A stretch of 49,187 bases of DNA from a virus, in IMG/VR virus record IMGVR_UViG_3300030107_005768, positions 2,385 to 51,571 of that record; one strand, 5' to 3'. The position numbers and the translations under genes are program-made. A model generated the notes under the pieces. The model was not told the DNA's origin. It ran no database searches and worked only from the letters and a program-made list of their open reading frames with translations. This document shows, piece by piece, positions 6,211 to 32,510 of the stretch (its first letter is position 1; every line of letters begins with the position of its first letter).

Positions 6211-6213
6211 CTT

Positions 6214-7943: not shown

Positions 7944-7946
7944 GTA

Positions 7947-8585: not shown

Positions 8586-8591
8586 AGTAGT

Positions 8592-9158: not shown

Positions 9159-9162
9159 TGTA

Positions 9163-9606: not shown

Positions 9607-10072
9607 TTATTTGTATGGGTGTAATTTGTTGCCCGGGCATAAAGCTGGCCTTCTTCTTTGTTTCCTCAGACTTCAATTGTTTATTGTTCACCATGTTTCC
9701 GCATATTTTAGCGGACTCTGTTAGCTGCTTAGAAACCTCTACTGCTTTGCTTATAGCCTGAAGCTTTATAGCGTCGTCATCAGACTCATACGCAATGTCA
9801 GATGCTAGCTGCATTAACGGCTCAAGCTTCTCTGCCGAGAGAAAGACATAGCCAATACTGGTCTTAACCACTCCCTCGTTCTCTATGAAGTCCCCAAGCT
9901 TCTTGAGCTCTGAGTATTTCTTTCTCTTGAGGGCTACTAGGCCAGTCCCAGCTGCCGCCTGTTTGGCTTCTTTGTCTGAAAACATTCCCTTAGTTGGTGG
10001 GACAATCGGTGTATCACCCTCAGGAATGTCCAAGTTTTTGTCGTCTTCCATTAAATTTCCCGTTTCACTCAT
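9434..10072 (-). CDS. Hypothetical protein with disordered C-terminus
   Basis: This protein has 212 residues if it starts at the ATG at 10072, which overlaps the preceding stop by 8 bases; an upstream ATG at 10099 gives 221. Residues 30-140 are helical (KEAKQAAAGTG, then a Lys-rich segment and LEPLMQLASDIAYESDDD). The last 60 are Gly/Asp/Asn-rich and probably disordered. The family is unknown. A small-terminase-like role is possible from position only. Confidence 0.6.
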   Translation of the reverse strand: MSETGNLMEDDKNLDIPEGDTPIVPPTKGMFSDKEAKQAAAGTGLVALKRKKYSELKKLGDFIENEGVVKTSIGYVFLSAEKLEPLMQLASDIAYESDDDAIKLQAISKAVEVSKQLTESAKICGNMVNNKQLKSEETKKKASFMPGQQITPIQINDPKQVTISGGKPDDGTGEGGDNINAEQNAAQTEHSVPRGDSVASPEFKNGDGEEGG

Positions 10073-10262
10073 CCCATCCAAACTCCAGATTGTTGTCACG
10101 CGCCCAGCAGGTAGCGTCCTTGTATTTAGTTTTTAGTGGCATATAGCACATACATCCTAACTCAGGATCCTTGTATTCACCGCAAGTTCTCCTCTTTTGG
10201 CTGAATATCGGACACTGAAAGCACTCTCGGTATCTCGCCGTTCGTGTGGTCGAGTCCACCAT
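10065..10262 (-). CDS. Small cysteine-rich, probably zinc-binding protein
   Basis: The 65-residue product has Cys pairs in the pattern C-x2-C ... C ... GCMC ... C, with a CYMPLKTK core. It resembles a widespread family of tiny phage proteins with C..CPF...C...CGCFM..K...C signatures that probably bind one zinc. The frame is open further upstream to 10442, but that part shadows the preceding gene, so I place the start at MVDSTTRT. It overlaps both neighbours. Function is unknown. Confidence 0.5.
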   Translation of the reverse strand: MVDSTTRTARYRECFQCPIFSQKRRTCGEYKDPELGCMCYMPLKTKYKDATCWARDNNLEFGWDE

Positions 10263-10956
10263 TTGCGTGTAAGGCATCCCGAAGATTGACCACCACATCA
10301 ACTGGCCCCCTGTTCTCAGGATGTGAGGGAGACACTTTACGGCCCCTAATGAACGGCACAAGGAAATGGCCCCCAGCAATGCGGCTGTTCCGAACTCCAC
10401 CGCACGGGATACTCGTTTGCGATATGAACGAACGATATACATCTATTAAATTGCCTTTCAGTTTGTAAACAACCCTAGCTACGTACCTGCAATAATCAGC
10501 CGCCGACAAGTTCTTTCTTTTATTCTTCTCGGATCTGATCATATTGCTCCACCAAGACTTCCTAGGTGCTACCTCAAGCCCCCAGTAGATATGGTCGTTC
10601 TTAAAAGCAAGTAGCCTAGTGTTACTCATTTCTGCCCAAAACCCTTTGTTTTTGGCTATTTCGACACAGGCATCATGCCCCTTGCCCTTGAAGTCTTGAC
10701 CTATGTTTTTGAACTCATCATGCAGTCCATTCTTCCAGTTAGCCCTGTAGGGTATGGGGTATATCTCTGCAAACCCTAGGTCTATGGATCGCTGCTGGTT
10801 AATCAACTGATCCAGCATTTTTTCCTGCATAACCTCCCAAACTAGCTTCATCTGAGGCAGGCTAATTACCCCGGTCTCAGATATACTTTTCAGAAGCTTT
10901 TCATCATAAAACATTTTTTTAGAAAAAAAAACTTGCAAGGCCTTTGCCGTGCACAT
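10177..10956 (-). CDS. Hypothetical protein, first gene of the leftward block
   Basis: This protein has 259 residues from the first ATG, or 245 from a second ATG at 10914 just after an A-rich tract; neither has a clear ribosome binding site. Residues 30-180 are helical with Trp-rich segments (WWSNMIRSEKNKRKN). No family is recognised. It is the promoter-proximal gene of the minus-strand block, facing the replication genes across the divergent region. Confidence 0.65.
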   Translation of the reverse strand: MCTAKALQVFFSKKMFYDEKLLKSISETGVISLPQMKLVWEVMQEKMLDQLINQQRSIDLGFAEIYPIPYRANWKNGLHDEFKNIGQDFKGKGHDACVEIAKNKGFWAEMSNTRLLAFKNDHIYWGLEVAPRKSWWSNMIRSEKNKRKNLSAADYCRYVARVVYKLKGNLIDVYRSFISQTSIPCGGVRNSRIAGGHFLVPFIRGRKVSPSHPENRGPVDVVVNLRDALHANGGLDHTNGEIPRVLSVSDIQPKEENLR

Positions 10957-11124
10957 AGGGTGCGTCCCGCAGAGGGTGGCAGGCCAAGGCAGATTAACGG
11001 CCTACCACAACAACAACAATAATTTTATCCCCCCTCGGGCTGAGGGCTCTAGCTAGTTCTGCTCACATCCTAGCGCCACCTCTGCACTCATACACTTGGC
11101 CCGGGTGGGGAGTTTTTTTTTGAA
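10957..11124. promoter_or_regulatory. Divergent intergenic region between leftward and rightward blocks
   Basis: This is the only place where the two main transcription blocks diverge, so promoters for both should lie here or just inside the flanking genes, but I recognise no clear -35/-10 pair. GTGGCAGGCC (10976-10985) can pair with GGCCTACCAC (10999-11008), nine of ten pairs. CCCTC/GAGGG forms a second small stem near 11032-11046. Confidence 0.4.
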
Positions 11125-11484
11125 ATGACAATACATCAGTTAAACCAAATCAACATTGACGCCCTGAGCTTTCGCATCTATGCAGCCTTGCTGTGTGAAA
11201 ACGACATGAGCCTCAACCGAATCGCAGCCAAAACAGGTGTCACTTGGAAGACAGTTAAGAGAAAAATCAATACACTGGAATCCAAGGGGCTTGTTATAAA
11301 AACAAATAACAGATCTAAAACTGACACCTACTCAGGAATAGACAGGACTATGGAAAATAACCTAAGCACTATGGAAAAAGACATAAGTAGTGTTGTGGAA
11401 AATAACACAACAACTGTGGAAAATGGCATAGGAGCTATGGAAAATGACCCAGAAACTATGGAAATTTACGAAAAATACTCGTGA
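11125..11484 (+). CDS. Winged-helix replication initiator-like protein (lambda O-type arrangement)
   Basis: This 119-residue protein has a helix-turn-helix/winged-helix domain in its first 60 residues (LNRIAAKTGVTWKTVKRKIN, then the wing KGLVIKTNN). From residue 76 it consists of heptad-like repeats beginning MEN/VEN. The DNA encoding them forms six repeats of 21-24 bases and is followed by an AT-rich stretch and a DnaB-type helicase gene. In lambda, the O gene contains the origin iterons and its product recruits helicase. By analogy this is the initiator. O itself is longer and has a helicase-loading C-terminus that is not obvious here, so it could instead be only a regulator. Confidence 0.6.
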   Translation: MTIHQLNQINIDALSFRIYAALLCENDMSLNRIAAKTGVTWKTVKRKINTLESKGLVIKTNNRSKTDTYSGIDRTMENNLSTMEKDISSVVENNTTTVENGIGAMENDPETMEIYEKYS

Positions 11485-11598
11485 AAACCAGAGTAATCAT
11501 ATATCACATATATATATTATATAGTACTAGTATCTCTAACACAAGTAAATAATCACATATATATCTCTAGTTAATTAATATCTCTAACACAAAGGAAA
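11350..11598. other. Candidate origin of replication: six iterons plus AT-rich unwinding region
   Basis: Copies of ACT(A/G)TGGAAAA begin, at the (A/G)TGG, at 11350, 11371, 11395, 11416, 11437 and 11458, spaced 21, 24, 21, 21 and 21 bases. Two of them read TGTGGAAAA, one mismatch from the reverse complement of the Escherichia coli DnaA box. Bases 11485-11598 are very AT-rich (repeated ATATAT) and would melt easily. The order of iterons, AT-rich DNA and helicase gene is that of the lambda origin. Confidence 0.6.
11503..11594. repeat. Two imperfect direct repeats of about 49 bases in the AT-rich region
   Basis: ATCACATATATAT occurs at 11503 and 11552, and TATCTCTAACACAA at 11531 and 11579, so a unit of about 49 bases is repeated. 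It lies between the iterons and the helicase gene and probably belongs to the origin. Confidence 0.6.
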
Positions 11599-12966
11599 AT
11601 GAGCAGAACAAAAACGCACCTAGAAGACATCAATGCAGAGAAGGCTCTGATAGGTTGCATCCTCCTAGACCCCGAAGTACTCGACAAGCTTCTCGGTAAA
11701 ACCGAGAAGCCACTGCAACTCTTCACAAGCTACAGCTGTAAGAATCTCCTAGTCGCTATGCTCAAGCTAAGCGACACAGGCAAGATGGTGGACAGAGTAA
11801 CCCTCTCCCACGAACTGCTGAAAGCTAACAAAGAAACCAACACCATCATCTTCATGGATGAATGCGAGTCGCTAACTCCATCATCCGCCAATTGGGAGTA
11901 CTACCTCGGGATCCTGAACGACCTACACAAAGCCAGAGAAACTAAACGTCTGTGCGATGAGGTATCACATAGAATATCTACAGATGGCAATGCTGAGCCT
12001 ACAGGGGTACTAGAAGAGCTTTTTGAAAGCGTAGAGGGTCTGTGTAGGGCAAAGGATAAAGAAACGTCTGTACGGGCTTATAAGGACGTTGCTCCCGAAG
12101 CTGTAGATTTCTTTCAGACATGCTTCGAAAATAAAGGTAAGGTAACTGGAGTAACAACTGGGCTCTCTAACCTAGACGAAATGATCAATGGCCTAAACAA
12201 AAACCACCTCAATATCGTAGCAGCTAGGCCTTCAGTAGGTAAAACATCCCTAGGTATCTGCATGGCAGATGCTGCCGCCAAGGCTGGCAAGAAAGTCCTG
12301 TTCTTCTCTCTGGAAATGTCAGCCTCCGAAATCATGATGAGATCTATCTGCTCTCACATGGATCTCAATTACAGAGACTGCCTCAACGGAGACCTGTCCC
12401 CAGAAGAACTAAAGAAGATAGCAGTAGGTATAGATCACGTATCCAAATACCCCATATTCATAGACGACTCCTCCTCCATCACTATCCACCAAATTAAATC
12501 AAAAGCTAAACGGTACAAACGTGACTTCGGAATAGACATGGTAATCGTAGACTACCTACAAATTATTACCACCAACCAGAAACACGAAACCCGTGACAGA
12601 GAAATAGCATCCTACTCCTCAGCACTAAAACAAATAGCAAGAGAACTAGGCGTACCCGTAGTCTGCCTATCACAACTATCCCGCGATGGAGCCAAGAATG
12701 ACCGCAAACCAAGACTAACCGACCTCAGAGATAGCGGCGCAATAGAACAAGACGCAGATGTAGTCATCATGATCCATAGAGATAATGCTGTTGACAATCA
12801 AATGGATAGACCATACCCATTGTCTCTCATCGTTGCCAAGCAGAGGAACGGGCCCGTAGGGGAAATAGAAGTGGAATTTGTACCTCAATACACAAAACTA
12901 AGAGTGCCATCCCTTATGAACTACCCAGACGCTCCTCCCACAGATTCTTTTGGGAACCCATTATAA
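11599..12966 (+). CDS. dnaB: DnaB-type replicative helicase
   Basis: This 455-residue superfamily 4 helicase unwinds the fork 5' to 3' as a ring. The N-terminal DnaB domain covers about residues 8-110. The RecA-like core has Walker A ARPSVGKTS (209-217), Walker B VIVDYLQ (Asp318), the LSQLSR sensor (357-362) and the LRDSGAIEQDAD segment (376-387). Length is close to bacterial DnaB. It stands next to the candidate origin, and because no phage DNA polymerase is seen, it probably brings the host replisome to phage DNA. The following gene overlaps it by 17 bases. Confidence 0.95.
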   Translation: MSRTKTHLEDINAEKALIGCILLDPEVLDKLLGKTEKPLQLFTSYSCKNLLVAMLKLSDTGKMVDRVTLSHELLKANKETNTIIFMDECESLTPSSANWEYYLGILNDLHKARETKRLCDEVSHRISTDGNAEPTGVLEELFESVEGLCRAKDKETSVRAYKDVAPEAVDFFQTCFENKGKVTGVTTGLSNLDEMINGLNKNHLNIVAARPSVGKTSLGICMADAAAKAGKKVLFFSLEMSASEIMMRSICSHMDLNYRDCLNGDLSPEELKKIAVGIDHVSKYPIFIDDSSSITIHQIKSKAKRYKRDFGIDMVIVDYLQIITTNQKHETRDREIASYSSALKQIARELGVPVVCLSQLSRDGAKNDRKPRLTDLRDSGAIEQDADVVIMIHRDNAVDNQMDRPYPLSLIVAKQRNGPVGEIEVEFVPQYTKLRVPSLMNYPDAPPTDSFGNPL

Positions 12967-13390
12967 CAAGCGATACGGAAGCGTAGCAGAATGCTTAGTA
13001 ACAGCTGAACTTCTCAAAAGAGATTGGTATGTCTCCACCCCAGAAGGAGATTATGCCCCCTATGATAGAATAATAACCAAAGGCATCTTCACCCACAAAA
13101 TACAAGTGAAGTCCGCCTCCAAATATAACCACCCCTCAGGTAACGAAAGATGCTACAAGTGGACTATCAGAGGCGGTCACGATAAAAAAACAATCCACGA
13201 CCTAAACGATATAGACTTCTATATCTTCCTAGGCCTCGCCAGCATGCACTTCCTAATCATTCCCTACGATATTATCTATGGAATGAAGACCATATCCGTT
13301 AATACAAAGAAAAAAGAAGACTCCAAATGGGGACTCTACGTAGGCGCATGGGGCCTTTTAGAGAATAAAGGCTACAAAGACATCACCTAG
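12950..13390 (+). CDS. PD-(D/E)XK nuclease
   Basis: This 146-residue protein starts with a TTG overlapping the helicase gene. It shows the nuclease core in order: Glu14 in GSVAECLV, Asp39 in PYDRII and QVK at 52-54, where Gln replaces the usual Glu, a known variant. The arrangement resembles archaeal Holliday-junction resolvases and the PD-(D/E)XK endonucleases associated with group I introns. It could process branched DNA during replication. The exact substrate is not readable from sequence. Confidence 0.75.
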   Translation: MGTHYNKRYGSVAECLVTAELLKRDWYVSTPEGDYAPYDRIITKGIFTHKIQVKSASKYNHPSGNERCYKWTIRGGHDKKTIHDLNDIDFYIFLGLASMHFLIIPYDIIYGMKTISVNTKKKEDSKWGLYVGAWGLLENKGYKDIT

Positions 13391-13508
13391 GCTTATTAAT
13401 TTGCCTAGCCTGCACTATAGCTCGCTCTATTATATCAATAGCCTTCTGATTTCCTATTGTCGCAACCTCTTCAAGAGCCAACTGTAGCGTTTTAATTAAG
13501 TCTGCCAT
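13383..13508 (-). CDS. Possible 41-residue peptide on the reverse strand
   Basis: A short frame reads MADLIKTLQLALEEVATIGN and ends in a helical segment. It is the only plausible minus-strand gene inside the rightward block and overlaps the end of the nuclease gene by 8 bases. It has no good ribosome binding site. It may be a real small regulator or chance. Confidence 0.3.
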   Translation of the reverse strand: MADLIKTLQLALEEVATIGNQKAIDIIERAIVQARQINKPR

Positions 13509-13582
13509 AGCTCAGACAGCCTAACACCTAGGCATCCCCCGAAAAAGTCGTTTCTAGAAATGGGCTTAAAGTCGCGCAAGCA

Positions 13583-13588
13583 GGTATA
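13583..13588 (+). promoter_or_regulatory. Weak candidate -10 promoter element
   Basis: TATACT is followed by TATATAT, upstream of the gene at 13800. No convincing -35 box lies at normal spacing. It is listed because it directly precedes an unusual C-rich tract. Confidence 0.25.
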
Positions 13589-13606
13589 CTATATATATTG
13601 GCGATA

Positions 13607-13633
13607 CCCCCCTATGCCCCCGCCCCACCCCCC
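13607..13633 (-). other. Potential G-quadruplex (four G-runs on the minus strand)
   Basis: Runs of six, five, four and six C (13607-13612, 13617-13621, 13623-13626, 13628-13633) are separated by loops of four, one and one base. The minus strand therefore fits a very stable G-quadruplex, and the plus strand could form an i-motif. It sits in the untranslated leader of the 13800 gene. Confidence 0.6.
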
Positions 13634-13799
13634 TCATTTTCCAGACATTCAGAATCCATTTCGCAACCCTACGCCAAACAATTGTTTTCCCTTTTCTGTT
13701 AAAACTGAAAACGGGAAGGGCAAACGGGACAAGTACCATAGTGGAAGGGGACGGCATCCCGCCGCGAACTTCCAACTTCTAACATTCAATCAAAATACA

Positions 13800-14270
13800 A
13801 TGGCAAAAAACCCAAGTATTACCACGGGCGGCGAGACATCGACCGATGTCGAAACACCGCGAACACCTAAAAGCCAAGATCAAAGCGAGCAAACGGCTCA
13901 GGCCCCTAATGGGGGCGATACTGGCGAAAACGGTTTAATCCTTCCACTTGATAAAAACGGCGACCTAGAACCTCGCTTCATTATCAAAGTAGAAAACGAA
14001 CATCCCAAAGCGTTCAGCGCTAAAGGCTGGAAAGAAACCCAGCTTGCAGTAATGGGGCACAAAGGGATGTTATCCGATTCCGAAAAAGCGTTAGTGGATA
14101 GAGTCTTTAAGAAATTGCAAGAGCATTCAAAACGCGAATCTCTTGGCCTCGTAACAGACTCCGACCATTCACAAGTTCGGAAAAATATGAGAGTCTTCAA
14201 TGACATTGAGCATACCGCTCAACGTATTGCAGACATCCGCACCATAAAAGACATCGAATATTCAAGCTAA
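13800..14270 (+). CDS. Hypothetical early protein
   Basis: This 156-residue protein starts at MAKNPSITTG. The frame is open back to 13560, but that extension runs through the C-rich tract and is Pro-rich nonsense, so I reject it. Residues 1-45 are Thr/Ser/Gln-rich and probably disordered. Residues 55-156 form a charged, mostly helical domain. No family is recognised. A terminator follows within 12 bases, so this gene ends a transcription unit. Confidence 0.6.
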   Translation: MAKNPSITTGGETSTDVETPRTPKSQDQSEQTAQAPNGGDTGENGLILPLDKNGDLEPRFIIKVENEHPKAFSAKGWKETQLAVMGHKGMLSDSEKALVDRVFKKLQEHSKRESLGLVTDSDHSQVRKNMRVFNDIEHTAQRIADIRTIKDIEYSS

Positions 14271-14281
14271 AATCAACAAAA

Positions 14282-14313
14282 GGTACACACTCTGCAAGGG
14301 GTGTGTCCTTTTT
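14282..14313 (+). terminator. Rho-independent terminator
   Basis: ACACACTC (14285-14292) pairs with GGGTGTGT (14299-14306), with one T-G wobble and loop TGCAAG. TTTTT follows at 14309-14313. It ends the helicase-nuclease transcription unit. Confidence 0.85.
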
Positions 14314-14329
14314 GCGTTTAACCAAAGTC

Positions 14330-15072
14330 TGTTTTCAAACATCAGCATAATATTTTTTATTATTCTGACGTTTTTACACCGACAAGTTGAGGTCTACTCA
14401 ACTGAGATGCGCTAACGGCGACCAACATCTCCAAGGTTTGTGTAACTGACAGGATACATGCCTGTCAGAAGATCTGTGACATGCCAGCGTGACGCTGTGC
14501 GTATGTTGTGTCAACGACAGGCATACGACGGGTTCCAACGGAACTAGCGGGAGCTGTGTGGCCCAATCGGGTCGGTTACTATTCGCATTTGCGCGATAGG
14601 CGGTTTAGTTAGCCGCAGAAGCCATAGACCAGTCAGAGGCGCTACTGCCAACGGAAACATGGTAGCGTGGTCGGTATAGGTTCTGGAGAGCAAATGAGCA
14701 CGGATAAGTAGTCGTGGCAAGGGTATGCGAAACCGAGAGGGCGTTCATCAACTTCGGGGTGAATAGTAGTGGCTATTGACGATGTGTCATTAGCTGCGAA
14801 GGGAGAGCTTCAGCGGAATAACCGCCGACAGACCTTTAGAAGAGTAAACTGATTCAGTACTTAGGTCGGTGCGACTTGTAAGTGTCGTACATGGAGTAAT
14901 CTCGGTGTTTAGCTTAGAGACACGGGCAGAACGTGTTCTTTAGGCTTTGTTGATTCCTTATAGCTGTCTGTTGTTTATTCAGGGGCACGGAGGTTCAATG
15001 GTTTGTGCATAGAGAGGCCGTCATTCAGATAGTCTCTGACCACTACACTGTTGGCCTCCGTGTCCTTTTTTT
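14330..15072 (+). ncRNA. Large structured non-coding RNA, about 740 bases (GOLLD/ROOL-like candidate)
   Basis: No convincing protein frame exists here, yet the DNA is visibly less AT-rich than its surroundings and full of perfect local stems: CTGACAGG/CCTGTCAG (14446-14468), CAGCG/CGCTG (14485-14497), CGTATG/CATACG (14500-14527), GTTCC/GGAAC (14532-14544), GCGG/CCGC (14813-14825), GTGCGAC/GTCGTAC with one wobble (14869-14890) and ACACG/CGTGT (14920-14936). The stretch is bounded by a terminator on the left and ends in a strong terminator on the right. Size, structure and phage context match large ornate RNAs such as GOLLD and ROOL, which occur in phages. I cannot match their consensus by eye, so the class is an inference. 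Confidence 0.6.
14983..15072 (+). terminator. Terminator closing the large structured RNA
   Basis: GGGCACGGAGG (14983-14993) pairs with CCTCCGTGTCC (15055-15065) over 11 pairs with one wobble. Seven T follow. The stem encloses 61 bases that can fold further (AGAGA/TCTCT), so this is also the 3' domain of the RNA. Confidence 0.75.
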
Positions 15073-18457: not shown

Positions 18458-18898
18458 ATGATACATATTACTGTTCGTTATGGGTTGGAGCGCAGTGCTT
18501 CAATTGAAGTGGGTGAAGGTACGTCCATCGCTCAGGTGTTGGAGCAGGTTCGCCCTGCTCTTGGCTTTGGCTGCAACGTCAAGGCGTTAATCGGTGGTGC
18601 TGCTCAGCCAGACAGCAACACCGTTCGTGATGGAGATGTAATCTCTGTCGAGACCGCTGCCAATTCTAAGGCATCGGAGGTATCCGTAACAGTCCGCTAT
18701 GGACTGGAGCGGCAGGTAACCACATCTGTGCCAGAGGGTTCCTCTATTGAGGAAGTACTCGGCAAGGTGCGGGCAGCGTTGGGCTTTGGCGATAATGTCA
18801 AAGCGTTAATCGACGGGGCGGCTCAGCCCGTTACTAATGGAGTCGCTAATGGCGATGTCATTACCGTCGAGACAGCGGCAAATTCAAAGGCCGTTTAA
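18458..18898 (+). CDS. Tandem ubiquitin-like (beta-grasp) modifier protein
   Basis: The 146-residue product is two copies of one 73-residue unit (1-73 and 74-146). Each starts with a beta hairpin (ITVRYGLE / VTVRYGLE), then a helix (SIAQVLEQVR / SIEEVLGKVR), a short strand NVKALI and a final GDVI(S/T)VETAANSKA. This strand-strand-helix-strand order is the beta-grasp fold of ubiquitin, ThiS and PRTRC protein C. The downstream E2-, E1- and JAB-like genes support a protein modifier. Neither repeat ends in Gly-Gly; both end in an almost identical ANSKA tail, so the activated residue is unclear and processing may be needed. AGGAA lies 7 bases before the ATG. A strong hairpin follows. Confidence 0.75.
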   Translation: MIHITVRYGLERSASIEVGEGTSIAQVLEQVRPALGFGCNVKALIGGAAQPDSNTVRDGDVISVETAANSKASEVSVTVRYGLERQVTTSVPEGSSIEEVLGKVRAALGFGDNVKALIDGAAQPVTNGVANGDVITVETAANSKAV

Positions 18899-18910
18899 GT
18901 GTAGTCTTTA

Positions 18911-18958
18911 GGAGCAGAACAGCAACCCCCATGGGAAACCATGGGGGTTTTCTGTTCC
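18911..18958 (+). terminator. Strong hairpin (attenuator or terminator) after the modifier gene
   Basis: AACCCCCATGG (18924-18934) pairs perfectly with CCATGGGGGTT (18939-18949) over a GAAA tetraloop. An outer stem GAACAG/CTGTTC (18917-18957) extends it. Only four T follow, so it may terminate partially and make the modifier more abundant than the enzymes downstream. Confidence 0.7.
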
Positions 18959-18976
18959 TATAACTGATAAAATAAA

Positions 18977-19846
18977 ATGAATAATCAAAGAGATAATAGA
19001 ACATATAAAGATATAGTTGGTGGTGCACACCTGATAATAACAGATGAAGGTGTTTACGAGCCAAGACACGTCCTCCAATACAAGGGAACAATGGAAGAAC
19101 ATCTGCAGAAGTTTGTAGATGCTGCTCCAACTAGGCTGATGGACTTAGCAACTTACAACGGTAAGCCTATTCACGTTAGCTTCGTTCCGTCAGGTAGAGA
19201 AGACATGAGAGGAACGTATTATGTTAGCGTTGAGCTAAAGACACTAAGGTTCAACACTACATATGAAGTATGTACTGAAACAAATGGGGGCACAGTAACT
19301 GATAAGTGGATTGCTCCTACATTCAGAGAAATGAATGGTGAGGGTTACCAAACCTACTCACTAGACTGGCAAGTACCTAGCTCGCTACAGCTATACATAT
19401 CTTTCGAGATGGGCCAAGTCTCTGCAAGAGGATACCAAGCTGGAGAAGGCGCAGTGGGGACAGGAATGACTGCGTTCACCCCGCAGAACTCTTATCTGCA
19501 CTGTAAGATTAGAGAAAATTATATTGCTGAACATCGAATGCCCGAAGCTGCTAAAGGTTGGTTCCGACTACCAACTGGCAACGTGTATGAGGATGGTAAG
19601 ATATGTTTCGGAGCTTCATATGCAACAGAAGTAGGTCTTGTTGAATCAACCAAGGCAAATCTTGAGCTGTTCTACAGCACCCCTTGGAACAGTGACTTGA
19701 TAAGAGACTTGAGAACCAAGTCTAAAATGATGTTTCGATTTCATGCTGAGGACAACCAGCAGCTGCCTATCAAATGTGAAGCTGGAAAACTGCATGAGTT
19801 GATGGAGTCTTTTAATAGCCTAACCATGGAAAGGATACCGGTATGA
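18977..19846 (+). CDS. E2-like protein related to PRTRC protein B (Prok-E2 family D type)
   Basis: This 289-residue protein carries near residues 195-212 the motif WFRLPTGNVYEDGKICFG. This matches the signature of PRTRC system protein B and relatives (P-x-x-N-V-Y-x-D-G-x-V-C-x-G), which Aravind and colleagues proposed as divergent E2-fold conjugating enzymes. Cys210 is the candidate thioester residue. The N-terminal half is beta-rich (HLIITDEGVYEP; IHVSFVP; YYVSVELKTL). It would take an activated modifier from the E1-like protein. It is the first gene after the hairpin and overlaps the next by 4 bases. The fold assignment rests on motif and synteny. Confidence 0.65.
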   Translation: MNNQRDNRTYKDIVGGAHLIITDEGVYEPRHVLQYKGTMEEHLQKFVDAAPTRLMDLATYNGKPIHVSFVPSGREDMRGTYYVSVELKTLRFNTTYEVCTETNGGTVTDKWIAPTFREMNGEGYQTYSLDWQVPSSLQLYISFEMGQVSARGYQAGEGAVGTGMTAFTPQNSYLHCKIRENYIAEHRMPEAAKGWFRLPTGNVYEDGKICFGASYATEVGLVESTKANLELFYSTPWNSDLIRDLRTKSKMMFRFHAEDNQQLPIKCEAGKLHELMESFNSLTMERIPV

Positions 19847-20319
19847 ATATAAGTAAAATAATAATAAGGGACTTGATAAGTAGGCCCGTTGTTCGACAGG
19901 AAAATATAAGAGCTCAATTTGAGAATGTTCTTGCCGATCAGGGGAAGTATTACATCAACCTACAGAATTACAGTAGACAAGAAGATGTAGACAGGATGAA
20001 CCGAGAAGAATTGCTGTTGTTTTTACGCGCTCTTGTTTGTGCGGGGTACTTCTACAACCTGACGAATGAGCAGAGAGAGATTCTGACTGACCCGTACAAG
20101 GTGCTTCAAGAAAGAGTGCTGGGTGTAAAATCTGGGTCAATACAGCGCAAGTTTTTGCGCAATGTAATGCGTACAGATTCAGAGCACAGAGTATTCCACG
20201 ACCCGGATATTGATGAGCAAATTGATAATGTTCTTGCTGATCTTGAAAGCAGGGAACCTAATGAAGATATGGCGGCGCTTCAAGCTGCCTTTGATAATAT
20301 AGGAAATGATGATGAGTAG
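19843..20319 (+). CDS. Hypothetical protein of the ubiquitin-like cassette
   Basis: This 158-residue protein is helical, with an acidic C-terminus rich in Asp, Glu and Asn. It is not recognised. ATGA coupling to the E2-like gene and a 14-base overlap with the E1-like gene place it between two conjugation enzymes, so a role as adaptor, substrate or regulator is plausible. No catalytic motif or zinc-binding cluster is visible. Confidence 0.65.
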   Translation: MNISKIIIRDLISRPVVRQENIRAQFENVLADQGKYYINLQNYSRQEDVDRMNREELLLFLRALVCAGYFYNLTNEQREILTDPYKVLQERVLGVKSGSIQRKFLRNVMRTDSEHRVFHDPDIDEQIDNVLADLESREPNEDMAALQAAFDNIGNDDE

Positions 20320-21046
20320 GAACTATCATGTTATAGGAGCAGGCGGAGTGGGGAGTTGGTTACTCCCCGCTCTGGTTAAACTAGCTAAGCCACAAGACAA
20401 CATCTATCTATGGGATGGAGATACACTTGAACCTAAGAATATGGACAGGCAACTGTTCAGTCCGTCTGACATAGGTTCCAACAAAGCTGAGGCTTTGATG
20501 AGAAAGTATGCTCAGGAAGCAGCATGCAGTCTGTACGCAAAGAACGAGTACTTCACATGTAGTAAGGTAGACCTAAGTGATTACGACAAAGATGAAGTAG
20601 TTCTGTTTGGTTGCGCAGACAACCATCCCAGTCGAGCCGAGATACTATATGTGTGCGACAGGGATGGTGTGTGCTCTATCATTGGCGGCAATGGATATAC
20701 AGATGCCGATGGATATTATTATGATGCTTCATATGAGGGCACGCCATGTGACCCGAGGGTATACTATCCCGAAATCCTGACAGATAGAACTGGATCCCCA
20801 GTACATGCAGATGGTTGCACTGGTGAGGCTCAGAAAGAAACACCTCAACTTGTGCTGGCTAATATGTGGGCAGCGGCGCATATGCTACACCTTCTTTGGT
20901 ATCATGTTCTTGGAGGTATAGCTGAGTCTTTGCCTGAAGATATGAAGGAGCATATGCCTATGCTTTCTAGGAACTCAGCTTATATGTTTGAGACAGTAAA
21001 GAAAGGAGACCTAGATAAAAACAAAGAAGCAAGGACACTTGATTAA
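20306..21046 (+). CDS. ThiF/E1-like ubiquitin-activating enzyme (PRTRC ThiF type)
   Basis: The 246-residue product shows E1/ThiF motifs: the nucleotide-binding GAGGVG (11-16), LWDGDTLEPKNMDRQ with Asp37, Asp39, Asn45 and Arg48, the lysine in SNKAEAL (60), and Asp105/Asn106/Arg110 in CADNHPSRAE. DGCTGEAQKETPQ near 169-181 places a cysteine (171) where PRTRC ThiF proteins have one. It should adenylate the modifier C-terminus and possibly form a thioester. Three in-frame ATGs occur at 20306, 20309 and 20312; the third has the best spacing from AGGAA. It lacks the zinc tetrad typical of MoeB/ThiF. Confidence 0.85.
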   Translation: MMMSRNYHVIGAGGVGSWLLPALVKLAKPQDNIYLWDGDTLEPKNMDRQLFSPSDIGSNKAEALMRKYAQEAACSLYAKNEYFTCSKVDLSDYDKDEVVLFGCADNHPSRAEILYVCDRDGVCSIIGGNGYTDADGYYYDASYEGTPCDPRVYYPEILTDRTGSPVHADGCTGEAQKETPQLVLANMWAAAHMLHLLWYHVLGGIAESLPEDMKEHMPMLSRNSAYMFETVKKGDLDKNKEARTLD

Positions 21047-21897
21047 TGAAAGACATAAGAGAATGTATACGCTGCGGAGAAAGCAAACCTCTTACGGAAT
21101 ACCGAGGGGTAATTAAGCCAAGCGGTAATGTTTCTTACAGAAGAAAGTGCAAAGCTTGCATTCAATCTGAGCGCCGAGAGCGATACGCAAATGACCCAGC
21201 TTATCGGGAATATACTAAGGCTCGATCAATAGCATGTTACGCTAGACGGAGAGAGGATGCTGTTGCCCAGAAAGCTAAGTACCGAGAAGAGAACAGGGAA
21301 GAAATAAAAGAAAGAAAAAGGAAGGCGTATTATGCCGACATAGAAAAAAGCAGAAAAAAACTTAGAGATCGCTATGCAGCAGACCCAGACAGCGCGAAAA
21401 AACGTAGAGAACATAGGGCTAAAAATATTGAAAGAGAAAGGCTTGTGTCTAAGATGTATAGAGAAAAGAAAGGCGATGAGCTAAGGGAAAAAAATAGAGT
21501 TCAATCCTCTAAGTGGAGAGAAGCCAACAGGGAAAAATACAACGAAAAAAATCGAGAGTATTACAGGTCTAGTATTAAACGAAAAATAGGAATGAACCTT
21601 CGTAACCGTATCAATGCAATGGTCAGATACAAATCAGGTCTAAATAAAAGGGAGTCTTTAAGATTGCTGATAGGCTGCACTTTTGAGGAGTTTAAGATGA
21701 AGTTTGAATCTCAGTTCACAAAAAACATGACTTGGGAGAAGTTCCTAAATGGAGAGATACACATCGACCACATCAAGCCATGTGCTTCCTTCGATCTAAC
21801 AAAAGAGTCAGAGCAGAAAAAATGTTTTCACTACACAAACCTTCAACCCTTATGGGCTAAGGATAATCTTAGCAAGGGAGCTAAGATAGCAGCATAA
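21046..21897 (+). CDS. HNH endonuclease with N-terminal zinc finger
   Basis: This 283-residue protein has four features: a four-cysteine zinc finger (Cys7, Cys10, Cys35, Cys38), a long Lys/Arg/Glu-rich helical spacer (about 40-190), a DNA-binding-like segment, and a C-terminal HNH nuclease (HIDH at 239-242, Asn265 in TNLQPL, Asn274 in KDNLSKG). It looks like a free-standing homing-type endonuclease. The ATG overlaps the E1 stop by one base, so it sits exactly between cassette genes without breaking any. It is probably a selfish insertion, although a functional link cannot be excluded. Confidence 0.8.
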   Translation: MKDIRECIRCGESKPLTEYRGVIKPSGNVSYRRKCKACIQSERRERYANDPAYREYTKARSIACYARRREDAVAQKAKYREENREEIKERKRKAYYADIEKSRKKLRDRYAADPDSAKKRREHRAKNIERERLVSKMYREKKGDELREKNRVQSSKWREANREKYNEKNREYYRSSIKRKIGMNLRNRINAMVRYKSGLNKRESLRLLIGCTFEEFKMKFESQFTKNMTWEKFLNGEIHIDHIKPCASFDLTKESEQKKCFHYTNLQPLWAKDNLSKGAKIAA

Positions 21898-21901
21898 TTT
21901 T

Positions 21902-22525
21902 ATGGAACAGGTAACCATAGAGAGGGTACTTGACCAACCTCTAATAGAAATGGTCAAGCTAGCACCGACAAACCCCATGACAAGGGGACAGGTACGGGCA
22001 TCCACAAATCTGGTAATCCCAGATGAGGTGGTCACATCGGAAGGCATCATCGAGTATGTCTTGGAAAACTTCGACCCATCCAAAGCACCTAGTTCTCGTT
22101 GGGCGCGTGACCAAGAGCTTCAGGCTCAACGTCGACAAAGGGATGAGAGGCTTAGGGCAGATGCTGAAAGGAGGCAACGACTAGATAATGAAGCCTTGTT
22201 TATCGTAAATTGTGATGGAACCCAAAGCAGGGACTACACCTCTTATGAAACACACAGAGCTTTCTACTCAGTAAGAACAAGGTTTAGTGCTGGAGACTTT
22301 GATGGTTTAGAAAGCAAAGAAGAGGTGGTAGATAAGATTCGTGACATGATCACAGATCAAATGCACGAAGAAGGCTATCATGATGAAGAACATATGGACA
22401 CTCATAACACTGAGTTTGAAGACTCAGAGCCTATAGAGTTAGATGAGGACGCAGAAGAAATTTGGGAGAATAACAAAGATGCTATAGCTAGTGCTCTTGG
22501 TTTGACCCCGGAAGAAATGGAGTAA
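21902..22525 (+). CDS. Hypothetical protein of the ubiquitin-like cassette
   Basis: This 207-residue protein has a small N-terminal domain (1-70), an Arg/Gln/Glu-rich helix (RWARDQELQAQRRQRDERLR region, 66-95), a mixed domain (98-150) and a very acidic C-terminus. It is not recognised. It lies 4 bases before the JAB gene and may be its partner or a substrate. Confidence 0.65.
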   Translation: MEQVTIERVLDQPLIEMVKLAPTNPMTRGQVRASTNLVIPDEVVTSEGIIEYVLENFDPSKAPSSRWARDQELQAQRRQRDERLRADAERRQRLDNEALFIVNCDGTQSRDYTSYETHRAFYSVRTRFSAGDFDGLESKEEVVDKIRDMITDQMHEEGYHDEEHMDTHNTEFEDSEPIELDEDAEEIWENNKDAIASALGLTPEEME

Positions 22526-22529
22526 AATA

Positions 22530-23654
22530 ATGCAACTAATACTACACAAAGATACAGTATATGAGCCAGTAGAATCACAATTCTACACTGGCCACCAACC
22601 AGTAAAGATAGTCAAGGGAGAGCCAGCTCTCTCTTGGAAAGGCGGCAAGATCTCTATCGAAGAATGGAATAAGATTCTTTCTTTCTTCAAGTGGTCTTAC
22701 GACACGACAAAGAGCGAGACGCAAGTGCGTTTGCTCTATCACCCCGAACAAAACAACTGGAAGGCATGGGCTTTCCCTCAAGAAAGGGGCACGGGCATGA
22801 CCGCAAAGGAGGTCGATGGAGAAGAGAAAGACAAGCAACGTGAAATGTTTGAAGGGTACATTGTTAACGGCACTGTACATCATCACTGTTCTTCTACTGC
22901 TTTTCAGTCAGGGACAGACAAGGATAACGAGCAAAGCCAAGATGGCTTACATATCACGATAGGTAAGATGGACTCTGCAATGTATGACATACACGGCAGG
23001 GTGTGTCGGTCTGACTCTATGTACGACTGCGTTTACAAGCAGTGGTTTGAGTATCCCGAAGAGTGGGATGGTGTTATCCCTGAAAGATATATCAGCCATG
23101 CTGTTTCGGATATGCTTGTTACCCCGCCTGACGATCAAAGTTTTCCTGATCAGTGGAAAGACAACCTAATAGAGGTTAAGCGTCCTGTTGCCACAACTCA
23201 TTGGCGAGGCAATGGAGGTCAGCTGCCACTGTACGAAAGAGCAAACAGGTACGGGGCAACAAGCCACACAAAAACTACACCTGTTGTCGGTGGATTCTCT
23301 CAAAACAATCAGAAGCAGGAAGATCTTATTCCTGTAGAATATACAGACGCAGAGAAAGAAGATGCCGCTATGCAGGTAATGAAAGAATGGGTCGACACTT
23401 ATGGTGATGAGCTGAAGACAGATGCTGCCCAGATACCAGACCTTTGGGATTCTATATTGTTACACGAATACACAAAGGAACTTTCAGAACTGGTAACCGA
23501 ATACGGCATAGAAGAACTAGAGTTCGAACAGTACGCTGATAAACTTCAAGAGAAGATATTAGAAAAGGATCTCGAAGAAGATAATAAAACTGTAGAATAT
23601 GATCCTTACGAAGCTCAAGTGCAGTCTTACTATGGTGGTCATTATGGAGTATGA
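22530..23654 (+). CDS. JAB/JAMM metallopeptidase (PRTRC protein A-like, deubiquitinase-type)
   Basis: The first 165 residues of this 374-residue protein form a JAB domain with a complete JAMM motif: His117-x-His119, seven residues, then Ser127-x-x-Asp130 (VHHHCSSTAFQSGTD), followed by GLHITIG. Glu63 is a candidate for the upstream glutamate. The pattern AFxSGTDxxxE...GLHxxxG is that of PRTRC protein A. Such zinc enzymes cut isopeptide or peptide bonds behind ubiquitin-like domains, so it could mature the tandem modifier or remove it from targets. Residues 170-374 are an unrecognised helical, acidic extension. GGAG precedes the ATG, and the stop overlaps the next start. Confidence 0.8.
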   Translation: MQLILHKDTVYEPVESQFYTGHQPVKIVKGEPALSWKGGKISIEEWNKILSFFKWSYDTTKSETQVRLLYHPEQNNWKAWAFPQERGTGMTAKEVDGEEKDKQREMFEGYIVNGTVHHHCSSTAFQSGTDKDNEQSQDGLHITIGKMDSAMYDIHGRVCRSDSMYDCVYKQWFEYPEEWDGVIPERYISHAVSDMLVTPPDDQSFPDQWKDNLIEVKRPVATTHWRGNGGQLPLYERANRYGATSHTKTTPVVGGFSQNNQKQEDLIPVEYTDAEKEDAAMQVMKEWVDTYGDELKTDAAQIPDLWDSILLHEYTKELSELVTEYGIEELEFEQYADKLQEKILEKDLEEDNKTVEYDPYEAQVQSYYGGHYGV

Positions 23655-23869
23655 ACCCAACTCAACAGCAAACCACAGAAGATGGCGATCCTGTCCTGTT
23701 CTGGCTTGAAGTTGGGGAAGAGGGTTTAGATGAAATCCTACTGGAAAGTGGCATCGTACCGTGCCACCTCCACAGGAACTTAGCCACCGACAGATTAAGG
23801 GCGAACGCTCTGTCTTGGGTAAGAGAAGAAGTCCAAGCGTTTGCCGAAGAACTAAGAACAAATAATTAA
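23651..23869 (+). CDS. Small protein of the cassette
   Basis: This 72-residue acidic protein has an ATGA overlap with the JAB gene and abuts the next gene without a gap. It is helical. No family is recognised. Tight coupling suggests it works with its neighbours. Confidence 0.6.
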   Translation: MNPTQQQTTEDGDPVLFWLEVGEEGLDEILLESGIVPCHLHRNLATDRLRANALSWVREEVQAFAEELRTNN

Positions 23870-24874
23870 ATGGAAAAGCTTATATATGTAATGGATCCAG
23901 TCACAAGAAATCTGTCACTGGATGTTAGTAGATGCAGCGAAGCGTACAATATTCGCATGGGAAACAACAAATGGCGTAAGTCTCTGTATGATTTTACTAT
24001 ACCGCATAGTTTAAAAAACAGACACATGTTCCGAGACATGAGAATGGAAGGGATGTCTGAGCATCACCTTGAAAATACTTATGCCGAGCTTGTTGATGTC
24101 CTTCCAGATATGAGCAATAATGAGAATCACGATCGACATACAACACGAAGGCAGGAAAGGAGTCTCTTTCTTAGCCCGGAGGTTGGTTCTGATTGTGAAG
24201 AGTACCTAACCAATAGGGAGTCAATTCCTTACTGGAAATACATCAGGCTGTACTACAAGCGAAAGCAATACGAATGGCAAGAGAACGGAGGATACTCTTG
24301 TGTAGGCAGCGAAGACATTACCTTTGCTGTGTGGGGCAGGGACGGGAGAGTTAGGATAGCCCCATCAAGAATGATTCAAATAGGCAAGGGTATCAGCCTT
24401 TACAACAGGCTTAATGCTTTATTCGGGCTGAGCCATCACAGGTCTGCACTAGAGTCTGGGATTGGAAACTCTACCCCTTACTTCATGATTGAAAACGGCA
24501 TGCTTAGAATGGTTGTGCCAATTATAAACAAGCAAAACTCAACAAGGGTTCGTTACTACGGTGTATGGAGATCCCATATTCCTGTAATAGATGGAGACAT
24601 CTTTGATGTTAAGACTAATAAAATGAACTCAAGAGTCCTAGATGGGCTGCCACCTATGCAGGATATTTTGTCTGACATATCGCCAAACTATTCCATCCCT
24701 CAGAGACTGAGGAACCAGTTCCGCCAAGCCCCCAACAACCCATCAGTTAGGTCGGCAATAAGAGCAGAGATAAACCAAGTAGTCCCTGACAATGTGACAG
24801 ACGAACAGGGACTTAATAACTTTCTTTCAGGAAGTAGAACAATCATATCGGAAGAGGGGGTTTATTCTTTATGA
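23870..24874 (+). CDS. Hypothetical protein at the end of the cassette
   Basis: This 334-residue protein is not recognised. It is rich in Arg, Asn and Tyr, with an apparent beta-rich centre (150-240) and a C-terminus ending IISEEGVYSL. That resembles the IITDEGVYEP segment near the start of the E2-like protein and, more weakly, DTVYEP near the start of the JAB protein. It directly follows the JAB block in the same direction, so membership in the pathway is plausible but unproven. Confidence 0.65.
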   Translation: MEKLIYVMDPVTRNLSLDVSRCSEAYNIRMGNNKWRKSLYDFTIPHSLKNRHMFRDMRMEGMSEHHLENTYAELVDVLPDMSNNENHDRHTTRRQERSLFLSPEVGSDCEEYLTNRESIPYWKYIRLYYKRKQYEWQENGGYSCVGSEDITFAVWGRDGRVRIAPSRMIQIGKGISLYNRLNALFGLSHHRSALESGIGNSTPYFMIENGMLRMVVPIINKQNSTRVRYYGVWRSHIPVIDGDIFDVKTNKMNSRVLDGLPPMQDILSDISPNYSIPQRLRNQFRQAPNNPSVRSAIRAEINQVVPDNVTDEQGLNNFLSGSRTIISEEGVYSL

Positions 24875-27283: not shown

Positions 27284-28165
27284 ATGAGCCTAGAGTTCAA
27301 GAAAGCGACAAAGAAAAGCGCCAAGTTACGTGCTGGTATTTATGGCACGTCAGGTAGCGGAAAGACGTACACCTCGTTACTCATTGCTAAGGGCATGGGT
27401 GGAAAGGTTGCGTTCATTGACACAGAGCATGGAAGTGCGAGCAAGTATTCAGACTTGTTTGAATTTGATGTCTGTGAGCTGGACTCCTTTGATCCAAGGG
27501 AGCTTATTAAGGGATTGGAAAACATCCCTAACGTGTATGATACCGTTGTGATTGATTCCATGTCAGCATTCTGGCAAGGAGAGCAAGGTATCTTGCAGCA
27601 GGTGGAGAATGCAGGCAAGCGTTCGCAAGGAGGCAACTCCTTCAGAGCGTGGGCTGAAGTTTCTCCTACTCTAAACCGTATCAATGACTTGGTTATGGGA
27701 GCCCCATATCATGTCATTACAACACTCAGAGCTAAGACTGAGTATGTTGTTGAGCAAAACGCTAAAGGGAAAGCAGCACCTAGAAAGGTTGGTCTTGCCC
27801 CAGTGTACAAGGAAGGATGGGAATACAACCTAGACTTTGTTGCACGCATGGACAATGACAATGCGTTGATAGTTGAGAAGACTAGAATCCCTGATTTTGC
27901 TGGAGAGGTAATCAGCAAGCCAGACGAGAAGGTTGGTCAAAGACTGGCGGCTTGGCTTGGTGATGGAGCTAAAGTTCCTACCCCGATTGAAGAATTGGAA
28001 GTGCTGATTGCTGAGGTTACTACCCCTGAGAAGTTCATAGAAGTAGCGAACAGGAGGGGGCATTTAGAAGATGGAATAAAAGATCTGTCTTTAATACCGA
28101 ACGAGAAGGTTAACTTCTTCCTTAAGAACTGGAACGATATTGTTCCTATAATACAGGAAGCATAA
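27284..28165 (+). CDS. Sak4-like RecA-fold ATPase (single-strand annealing/recombination)
   Basis: This 293-residue protein has Walker A GTSGSGKT (21-28) and Walker B YDTVVIDS (85-92), within an N-terminal RecA-like core, and a helical C-terminal part (about 225-293). It matches the AAA ATPase family that includes the phage recombinase Sak4, which anneals single-stranded DNA with help from SSB. The gene context supports this: an exonuclease gene overlaps it by one base and an SSB gene follows. Confidence 0.85.
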   Translation: MSLEFKKATKKSAKLRAGIYGTSGSGKTYTSLLIAKGMGGKVAFIDTEHGSASKYSDLFEFDVCELDSFDPRELIKGLENIPNVYDTVVIDSMSAFWQGEQGILQQVENAGKRSQGGNSFRAWAEVSPTLNRINDLVMGAPYHVITTLRAKTEYVVEQNAKGKAAPRKVGLAPVYKEGWEYNLDFVARMDNDNALIVEKTRIPDFAGEVISKPDEKVGQRLAAWLGDGAKVPTPIEELEVLIAEVTTPEKFIEVANRRGHLEDGIKDLSLIPNEKVNFFLKNWNDIVPIIQEA

Positions 28166-28941
28166 TGGCATACGTAAAGCCAGACAACTCTGCTCACTGG
28201 TACACCGGTGATGGAGAGCCGAGACATACTAGGGATAACGGCAAACCAACTACCCTAAAAGATGCTAGAGTAGAGGGATTGTTCCCAAGTGTTACATCAA
28301 TACTGAACGTCTTGGCTAAGCCTGCTCTGGAGAGCTGGAAGATAGAACAGGGTATCCTGTCCGCCTTGCGGCTTAAACAGGGGGAGGATGAATCAACTGA
28401 TGACTTCGCAAAAAGAATTGTGCAAGACATGAAAGTTGCCACATCTTCTGCTGCCATATTCGGAACTAAAGTTCACAACGCTCTTGAACAGTACAACATC
28501 GACCGAACAGAACCCGATGAAGATGATGAGGTGTTGCCTTGGTTCAAAGAGTATCAACCTTGGTTCGATCAGAACATAACCAAGGTGCATCAAGCTGAAA
28601 CAGTACTTGTTAATCAGCAGTATGGTTATGCTGGGACTGTCGATCTGGTAGCAGATCATAACTTGTGGGGTAAGTGCGTCATAGACTTCAAGACTCAAGG
28701 AGTTAAGAGGAAGGCGAGATTCTACGAGACATGGATATACCAGTTGGCAGCTTACCAGCAGTGCATAGAGGGAGATCCTAAGTGTCTTTCTCTAGTAATA
28801 GATTCTAAGGCTCCATCTGAACCCGTTGAAAAACTATGGACTAAAGGTGAAGTCGAAGAAGGTTGGGCGATATTTAAATTGTCCAACGAGTTGTATCAGA
28901 AAACAAAAAACTACAAGCCTCCAGTCAAGGAGGTATTCTAA
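28165..28941 (+). CDS. PD-(D/E)XK exonuclease (RecB/Cas4-like)
   Basis: The 258-residue protein shows the expected motifs in order: GTKVH (His104), Glu145 in AETVLV, GTVDLVA (Asp160), IDFKT (Asp174, Lys176) and the QxxxY helix YQLAAYQQ (193-197). Such phage exonucleases resect double-stranded ends to give the single strands used by the annealing protein encoded just upstream (one-base overlap, TAATG). Confidence 0.88.
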   Translation: MAYVKPDNSAHWYTGDGEPRHTRDNGKPTTLKDARVEGLFPSVTSILNVLAKPALESWKIEQGILSALRLKQGEDESTDDFAKRIVQDMKVATSSAAIFGTKVHNALEQYNIDRTEPDEDDEVLPWFKEYQPWFDQNITKVHQAETVLVNQQYGYAGTVDLVADHNLWGKCVIDFKTQGVKRKARFYETWIYQLAAYQQCIEGDPKCLSLVIDSKAPSEPVEKLWTKGEVEEGWAIFKLSNELYQKTKNYKPPVKEVF

Positions 28942-28948
28942 ACATAAC

Positions 28949-29332
28949 ATGTATAACAAACTAATAGTAATGGGAAACCTAGTTCGCTCTCCTGAGGTTA
29001 AAGAAATAGGTAACGATAACACGGTCTGCAACTTCACAATAGCGGCGAACCGTAAGAGAGGAGACAATGAAGAGGTCGCTTACGTTGACTGTGCTTCCTT
29101 CGGGAAGCAGGGAGAGGTAATCGGCAAGCACGTCTCAAAGGGAGACCGCCTTCTGATTGAAGGCCGACTAAGAACAGAAAGCTGGGAAAGCGAAGGGAAG
29201 AAGCGCTCCAAGCTTAGTTGCATAGTTGAGCAATTCTCCTTTGCGAACGGCCCTAAAGGCCAGTCAGACTCTGAGTCTGCACAACAAACCCTGAGTGCTG
29301 CCACGCAGTCCACAGGTTCATCCCCGTTCTAA
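28949..29332 (+). CDS. ssb: Single-stranded DNA-binding protein
   Basis: This protein has 127 residues from MYNKLIVMGNLVRSPEVKEI, a standard SSB start. The OB fold spans about residues 1-103, including FTIAANRK, YVDCASFGKQ and KGDRLLIEGRL. The C-terminus is Ser/Gln/Thr-rich and ends in SSPF, close to the DDIPF-type tip but without the acidic residues, so contacts with host proteins may be altered. The frame is open to 28826, but the start at 28949 gives a normal SSB. Confidence 0.93.
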   Translation: MYNKLIVMGNLVRSPEVKEIGNDNTVCNFTIAANRKRGDNEEVAYVDCASFGKQGEVIGKHVSKGDRLLIEGRLRTESWESEGKKRSKLSCIVEQFSFANGPKGQSDSESAQQTLSAATQSTGSSPF

Positions 29333-32153: not shown

Positions 32154-32510
32154 ATGAACAAAGGACTGCCAACTGAAGTAGACATCCTTAATCTTACTTA
32201 TAAGATTAACTGGATGAACCCACCTGAAGAATCGGGTGCGGAACAGTTGGGGTTATGCGACTTTAACTCGCAAACTATTTCAGTAACAAAGTCCCTGCCC
32301 AGACAATCAAGGGCAGAGACTTTGCTTCATGAAATAATACACGCAATCAATCACGGCATGGGAGCTCCATCTAAAATAGATGAGGAAAAGTTTACTGGTA
32401 AAATGTCTATAGGAATAGCCACGTCAGTAAAGCAAAGCCCTGAAGTTTGGAAGTGGCTAATGAGGGAGATAGCTTACAAGCCTAGTAAGCCCTCCTCAAA
32501 ACACCAGTAG
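32154..32510 (+). CDS. Small zinc metallopeptidase-like protein (HEXXH)
   Basis: The 118-residue product contains LLHEIIHAINHGMG with His59-Glu60 and His63, the zincin motif, and a possible third ligand at His67 or a later Glu. Size and motif resemble small phage zincins of the ImmA/IrrE or SprT-like kinds. Targets could be a host or phage repressor. It is the last rightward gene and its 3' end overlaps that of the giant gene by 29 bases. Confidence 0.75.
   Translation: MNKGLPTEVDILNLTYKINWMNPPEESGAEQLGLCDFNSQTISVTKSLPRQSRAETLLHEIIHAINHGMGAPSKIDEEKFTGKMSIGIATSVKQSPEVWKWLMREIAYKPSKPSSKHQ

Follow-up and report, generated by a model that had tools for sequence, protein, structure and literature searches.

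A predicted ubiquitin-like conjugation and deconjugation cassette with an alanine-ended modifier in a family of phages

The genes at positions 18458-24874 of a 49,187-nucleotide stretch of viral DNA (the window, bases 2385-51571 of the 51.6-kb IMG/VR virus record IMGVR_UViG_3300030107_005768) raise the question of what a phage would do with a full set of proteins resembling a ubiquitin-like (UBL) conjugation pathway. In bacteria, such conjugation has been described chiefly in plasmid operons and in antiphage defence. The cassette lies entirely on the plus strand and comprises, in order, genes for a UBL modifier, an E2-like conjugating enzyme, a 158-residue protein, an E1-like activating enzyme, an HNH/endonuclease VII-like protein, a 207-residue protein, a JAB protease, and proteins of 72 and 334 residues (Table 1). 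The genes overlap or almost abut, the sole real gap being the 78 bases between the UBL and E2 genes. A first-pass annotation had named eight of these genes, and our gene calls agree with its coordinates and strand; the ninth, the HNH/endonuclease VII-like gene, had been overlooked. On the basis of this anatomy, the cassette probably encodes a phage-borne system for both conjugation and deconjugation of a ubiquitin-like modifier. A phage family in which a set of this kind is complete, keeps its order and appears catalytically intact inverts the picture drawn from defence systems, and makes viral protein tagging testable.

The cassette recurs well beyond the window. Scans with JAB and E1 alignments gathered 64 distinct loci that hold a UBL, E2, E1 and JAB of the window type, and the best matches stand in the order UBL-E2-E1-JAB in 63 of them. 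At the 64th locus (L247), the cassette's own E1 occupies the usual place, but the best match is to another E1, of PRTRC-like type, outside the cassette. Nearest to the window are three IMG/VR contigs that share its layout, one of which ends inside the E1 gene. A further protein lies between E1 and JAB in 27 of the 64 loci (group M); in the remaining 37, mostly on short contigs (group N), E1 and JAB overlap or are adjacent, four having a gap of about 1.6 kb. A tree of 78 E1 sequences, obtained by a short search and containing some long branches, places the E1s of this clade on one side of a long branch (SH-aLRT [Shimodaira-Hasegawa-like approximate likelihood-ratio test] support of 100), the second E1 of L247 excepted. 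That locus, on a metagenome-assembled genome (MAG) contig of Opitutus sp. (5356-14377), carries an alanine-type cassette in which the E1 and JAB open reading frames (ORFs) are split, with the second E1 a few kilobases away. Scans of genome contigs from bacterial collections yielded 12 loci with the JAB query and none with the E1 query. Nine of the 12 lie in MAGs labelled Verrucomicrobiota, which is a weak hint at the host, as binned phage contigs can be misplaced; one terminase was found among 40 proteins neighbouring the MAG-binned loci. Searches of named phages by tblastn with the JAB, E2 and 334-residue proteins gave no match.

Structure prediction bore out the earlier description of the modifier as a tandem beta-grasp protein. 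The AlphaFold model, built with 45 homologues, contains two beta-beta-alpha-beta-beta-beta domains, each followed by an end of low confidence. Its best Foldseek matches in the PDB are linear di-ubiquitin (E 1.3e-9) and ISG15 (E about 1e-8), with a probability of 1.00, and 189 solved structures match with E < 0.001. Public profile libraries recognize the modifier weakly (IQUB, 5e-4; BilA, 0.001). Each domain closes with A-N-S-K-A, at residues 68-72, followed by a linker Ser, and at residues 141-145, followed by a single Val, giving the C terminus AANSKAV. Lys144 is invariant and Ala145 nearly so among the 45 homologues. Across 63 distinct clade modifiers, the final residue of the A-x-x-K-A motif is Ala in 60, and Gln or Asn in the other three. 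The stop codon directly follows the alanine in 36 of these 60 modifiers, whereas 13 have one additional residue and 11 have 2 to 30. The constant K-A followed by a variable and dispensable tail suggests a maturation site at which the modifier is trimmed by proteolysis, and JAB would be the obvious protease to act there.

Profile searches and residue conservation carry the assignment of the three enzymes. The E2 is a marginal match to Pfam Prok-E2_D (E 9.3e-4, residues 186-248) and scores 0.061 against PRTRC_B, whereas a profile from which all close relatives of the window were excluded, seeded with PRTRC proteins of plasmids and with proteins of cultured phages and of IMG/VR loci, matches it at E 3.1e-9 over residues 184-245, around Cys210. 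Profiles built in the same way match the E1 at E 6e-43 and JAB at E 3e-36. The E1 also matches ThiF (E 1.4e-13) and PRTRC_ThiF (1.3e-13); the latter score, 50.9 bits, is far under the family cut-off of 144.75, yet the proteins are homologous nonetheless. JAB finds PRTRC_A alone in public libraries, at an insignificant 0.036. Asn202, Cys210, Gly212 and Leu241 of the E2 are present in all 64 clade members, and its AlphaFold model (54 homologues) is confident, with a predicted local distance difference test score of 85 and a predicted template modelling score of 0.78; a Foldseek search of BFVD with this model found one uncultured phage protein. The E2 fold is assigned from sequence homology; the Foldseek search of the PDB with this model, given below, found no E2 enzyme. 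The nucleotide-binding motifs of the E1 and the HxH-x7-SxxD signature of JAB, both picked out in the first-pass annotation, are kept in 65 of 65 clade proteins: Gly11, Gly13, Gly14, Asp37, Asp39, Asn45, Arg48, Gln49, Lys60, Asp105, Arg110 and Cys171 in the E1, and the JAMM residues Glu63, His117, His119, Ser127 and Asp130 in JAB. Because Asp105 and Cys171 are the sole invariant residues in an alignment of 15 diverse E1s, Cys171 is the likely thioester cysteine. These matches to profiles free of the clade, together with the phage hallmarks of the window record (terminase large subunit [E 1e-23], endolysin, DnaB-type helicase, tyrosine integrase, Sak4-like annealing protein and exonuclease), strongly support the earlier claim that a phage carries a full UBL/E1/E2/JAB set.

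Table 1. Features of the cassette, with positions in the window and the evidence for each
Feature	Position	Strand	Evidence
Modifier (UBL), two tandem ubiquitin-like domains	18458..18898	+	AlphaFold2 model, Foldseek, homologue conservation
Terminator-like hairpin in UBL-E2 gap	18924..18949	+	11-bp stem, GAAA loop, T-rich tail
E2-like conjugating enzyme, Prok-E2_D type, predicted catalytic Cys210	18977..19846	+	Profile matches, conservation
158-residue protein at E2-E1 junction	19843..20319	+	Small unrelated-looking ORFs at same place in many relatives
E1-like ThiF adenylyltransferase (predicted)	20306..21046	+	GxGG, D37/D39, N45, R48-Q49, K60, D105, putative thioester Cys171
HNH/endonuclease VII-like gene between E1 and 207-residue genes	21046..21897	+	phrog_1035, E 3e-11
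207-residue protein, ~48-residue domain near N terminus (residues 10-57, LI..aP.NP..R...)	21902..22525	+	Family between E1 and JAB
JAB/JAMM metalloprotease, predicted to mature and remove modifier	22530..23654	+	Complete E63...H117-x-H119-x7-S127-xx-D130 site
72-residue protein, closest relatives only	23651..23869	+	
334-residue protein, second ~48-residue domain at C terminus (residues 276-320)	23870..24874	+	Window clade and L166

JAB genes broken just before the catalytic HxH, with an ORF ending in ...MDIH or ...CDVH, were seen in Acinetobacter phage ME3 (L007, 2751-5861) and in two other loci (L161, 1890-7891; L162, 1976-7792), the E1 of the latter two also being broken, at its D-x-D...RQ motif. 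Endonuclease-like ORFs lie between the parts, and introns or homing elements at active-site codons are probable.

How closely the cassette resembles known systems bears on what it may do. We take PRTRC here to be the operon type that Iyer, Burroughs and Aravind (2006) numbered 6d. The first-pass annotation had identified the parts as PRTRC-type, and this stands as distant homology: both systems have a separate UBL, an E2 with a conserved Cys (Prok-E2_D), a ThiF-type E1 and a JAB, and the three enzymes are homologous by profile. Several features particular to PRTRC are not shared. The C-terminal glycine is highly conserved in type 6d modifiers (PMC1779556), and the PRTRC-like modifiers gathered here mostly end in TGTKG, VGTKG, AGTKG or similar, whereas the window repeats carry A-N-S-K-A at the aligned position. 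In the column of the downstream His that is absolutely conserved in PRTRC E2s, the clade has N-x-D-L (Asn238 in 60, Asp240 in 63 and Leu241 in all of 64 members). The gene order here, UBL-E2-x-E1-(new protein)-JAB, differs from the C-F-B-A-ThiF order of PRTRC (UBL-F-E2-JAB-E1), and JAB bears a long C-terminal extension. The RRxW motif of PRTRC_A, which we take to be the JAB-N Arg/Trp feature, occurs in loci L009 and L011 and has no counterpart in the window JAB. Additionally, neither ParB nor an F-like helical protein was detected: ParB_N had no match in the 51.6-kb record, which may be incomplete, and hhalign gave the 158- and 334-residue families, whose profiles are shallow, a probability below 1% against F-type proteins. 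The cassette is therefore a distant homologue of PRTRC rather than a member, and a separate variant of prokaryotic ubiquitin-like conjugation. To our knowledge, its alanine would be the first systematic departure from the glycine end for a modifier with its own E1, E2 and JAMM protease.

Closer in setting are what we term G-type cassettes, in the Vibrio phage D69, the Salmonella phage Arash, the Bacillus phage KLEB27-3 and the Burkholderia phage BgVeeders33, in which E1, E2 and JAB likewise adjoin one another. The E2s of D69, Arash and KLEB27-3 share the FN-x-DL motif with the window clade. A UBL is present in BgVeeders33 and has three repeats in D69 and four in KLEB27-3; none was identified beside the enzymes of Arash. 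Unlike the window modifier, these UBLs end in TGTKG, VGTKG or AGVKG, the order is UBL-...-E2-JAB-E1, and the protein with a domain of about 48 residues described below was not found in the cassettes of the four cultured phages. Since such sets, full or nearly so, occur in cultured phages, where their genes are annotated mostly as hypothetical or structural, carriage by phages is wider than the alanine clade. In KLEB27-3 (L008, 736-1443), gp199, annotated as hypothetical, consists of four near-identical ubiquitin-like repeats that each end in AGVKG, a natural poly-modifier precursor. In D69 (L005, 6001-6957), the E1 is annotated from 6202, which omits its nucleotide-binding N terminus; tblastn extends it to 6001, partly beneath a gene call on the opposite strand, in what looks like an annotation error or frame problem. 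A third comparison is with the polyUbl operons of type 6e, which also have tandem UBL repeats, of 70-75 residues. In that type, E1 and JAB usually form one fusion protein and no Cys is present in the E2-like domain (PMC1779556), whereas in the window all proteins are separate and the E2 has its Cys. Our literature searches found no account of phage-encoded ubiquitin-like conjugation, and papers outside those searched may report one.

Two further elements of the cassette recur among its relatives. The first is a domain of about 48 residues, built around L-I-x-L-x-x-x-A-P-x-N-P-x-x-R followed by P-D/E and a tryptophan-bearing end, which is found in both the 207- and the 334-residue proteins; the 207-residue profile finds the 334-residue protein at E 0.0015, and the reverse search gives E 0.0046. 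A family profile collects about 40 distinct proteins of 180-470 residues. Every group M locus has one such protein between E1 and JAB, L173 and L175 have two, and a further member follows JAB in the window clade and in L166. This strict co-location suggests that the protein is a component of the system, and it may be an adaptor, a regulator or a recurrent target. The second element is the hairpin behind the modifier gene. A hairpin with a stem of 7 bp or more and a T-rich stretch behind it occupies the UBL-E2 gap in 36 of 65 clade loci, compared with 23 of 1300 gaps shuffled with base composition alone preserved; among group M and the window, it is present in 20 of 28. Its sequence differs from phage to phage. 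The simplest reading this suggests is a leaky terminator that leaves the modifier in surplus, although the same pattern would be expected of a conventional terminator and a separate E2 promoter.

The surroundings of the cassette point to when it may be expressed. In the window, a Sak4-like ATPase, an exonuclease and an SSB-like ORF lie nearby at 27284-29332, and the structural genes lie away from the cassette, mostly on the opposite strand. The families downstream of the cassette in group M include exonuclease, RecT, Sak4, helicase and ParB-like proteins, which places it in an early recombination/replication block, and because its genes adjoin this module they are probably expressed early. Given this location, takeover of the host or control of the DNA metabolism of the phage itself is somewhat more likely than tagging of virions.

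The homology of the parts, the almost complete conservation of their catalytic residues, the constant gene order, the alanine at the modifier end and the recurrent position of the hairpin lead us to infer a pathway of catalysis, direction of transfer, maturation, timing and targets. JAB would cut the tandem modifier after each A-x-x-K-A to release single modifiers that end in alanine, the E1 would adenylate this alanine and load the modifier onto Cys171, and Cys210 of the E2 would accept it from the E1 and hand it on to target proteins, from which JAB could strip it again. Proteins with the 48-residue domain would serve as adaptors, regulators or recurrent targets, and leaky termination would keep the modifier in excess over the enzymes. 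Produced early, the system may act on proteins of the host or of the phage while the host is being taken over, and possibly weaken host defence; modification of the host or of its defences is the role that we place first, without strong preference. We offer only tentatively the further proposal that this is a phage-borne class of ubiquitin-like systems with attachment through a C-terminal alanine and an adaptor family of its own, by which host proteins would be modified early in a manner that glycine-specific host enzymes could not reverse. Because the parts are so constant and the tails so variably trimmed, maturation and activation could be tested directly with a few purified proteins.

Several observations weigh against this conjugation pathway. 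An E1 substrate without a terminal glycine is unusual. The E2 has neither the classical His nor that of PRTRC, a Foldseek search of the PDB with its full model returned no E2 enzyme (the ubiquitin E2 variant domain of TSG101 ranked 35th, at E 2.1), and neither the E2 nor the JAB profile matches a solved structure. Because 37 of the 64 loci do not have the 207-family gene, it cannot be required in all of them. Finally, early timing is read from the gene neighbourhood, and a promoter search found none exceeding shuffled sequence.

Other roles for the same genes have to be considered. The cassette could be a defence borne by a lysogen, tagging the virions of competing phages and so protecting the host of the prophage in the manner of Bil, which comprises a tandem ISG15-like modifier, E1, E2 and JAB (review PMC11354881). 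The same four part types are present here, the modifier is likewise tandem and ISG15-like, and the window record has an integrase. Among Bil profiles, only BilA matches, and weakly as noted above, whereas BilB, BilC and BilD do not; the clade E2 is without the described C-E-H-H arrangement, and its E1 is a single short domain. Moreover, the cassette occupies the early/recombination region of many phages rather than an accessory site, and its G-type relatives are carried by large phages, Arash and KLEB27-3 among them. We therefore regard a lysogen defence as rather unlikely. Self-modification, by which the phage would tag proteins of its virion or of its replication machinery and so control assembly or replication, also seems unlikely to us: JAB would make such tagging reversible, the recombination genes are next door, and a role independent of the host would account for the spread across many phages, but the structural genes are unlinked to the cassette. 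A sulfur carrier or small-molecule pathway, in which a thiocarboxylate would be formed on the UBL by the E1 in the manner of ThiF/ThiS or MoeB/MoaD, is improbable; it agrees with the ThiF-like E1 and with matches of two UBL members to Pfam ThiS, and is contradicted by a dedicated E2 with an invariant Cys, a JAB in all loci, the missing C-terminal Gly and a cassette that has no sulfurtransferase or biosynthetic gene. That the loci are misfiled plasmids or host islands with an ordinary PRTRC-like system is scarcely credible, for although large plasmids are the typical PRTRC carriers and some IMG/VR contigs may be misfiled, the window record has terminase, endolysin, DnaB and integrase genes and no ParB, and G-type cassettes are found in complete cultured phages.

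Returning to the genes that surround the predicted conjugation core, the suggestion that the four interleaved proteins might be new components held for the 207-residue protein, a conserved component, and for the 334-residue protein, which has the same domain; the 158-residue protein is conserved in position only, and the 72-residue protein is confined to the closest relatives. Equivalents of the 158-residue protein at the same place barely align, and we rejected the idea that they form one conserved family. Pfam has no family for the domain of the 207- and 334-residue proteins or for the E2-E1 junction proteins (43 members tested). A reading of the 334-residue protein as a PRTRC helical protein or second E2 was unsupported by hhalign. 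Because the HNH/endonuclease VII-like gene has another version in L002 and L003 and is missing in L157, L158, L160 and L135, it probably encodes a free-standing endonuclease of mobile type that entered the operon and does not belong to the conserved core. The versions in the window, L002 (8777-9883) and L003 (8725-9927) have a near-identical C terminus and different zinc-binding N-terminal parts, which suggests exchange of targeting modules. Elsewhere in the window, a single ORF of 4251 residues on the minus strand (32482-45237) takes up a quarter of the sequence and may encode a giant virion-associated protein.

Related enzymes were also seen in other phages. In the crAss-like phage cr106_1 (L018, 4204-6636), a Crassvirales genome, a JAB-like protein (HSHNNMSTFFSGTD) adjoins a ThiF-like E1 domain protein with an N-terminal extension. 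In the Xanthomonas phage PhiXhv-12 (L020, 2736-6612), a ThiF-like E1 adjoins two proteins, one small and with SGG closing its C-terminal part, the other (gp829, of the 892-residue class) combining an E2-like G-x-LCLGSFH stretch with a C terminus very rich in Cys; this is possibly a different ubiquitin-like system with a built-in zinc domain.

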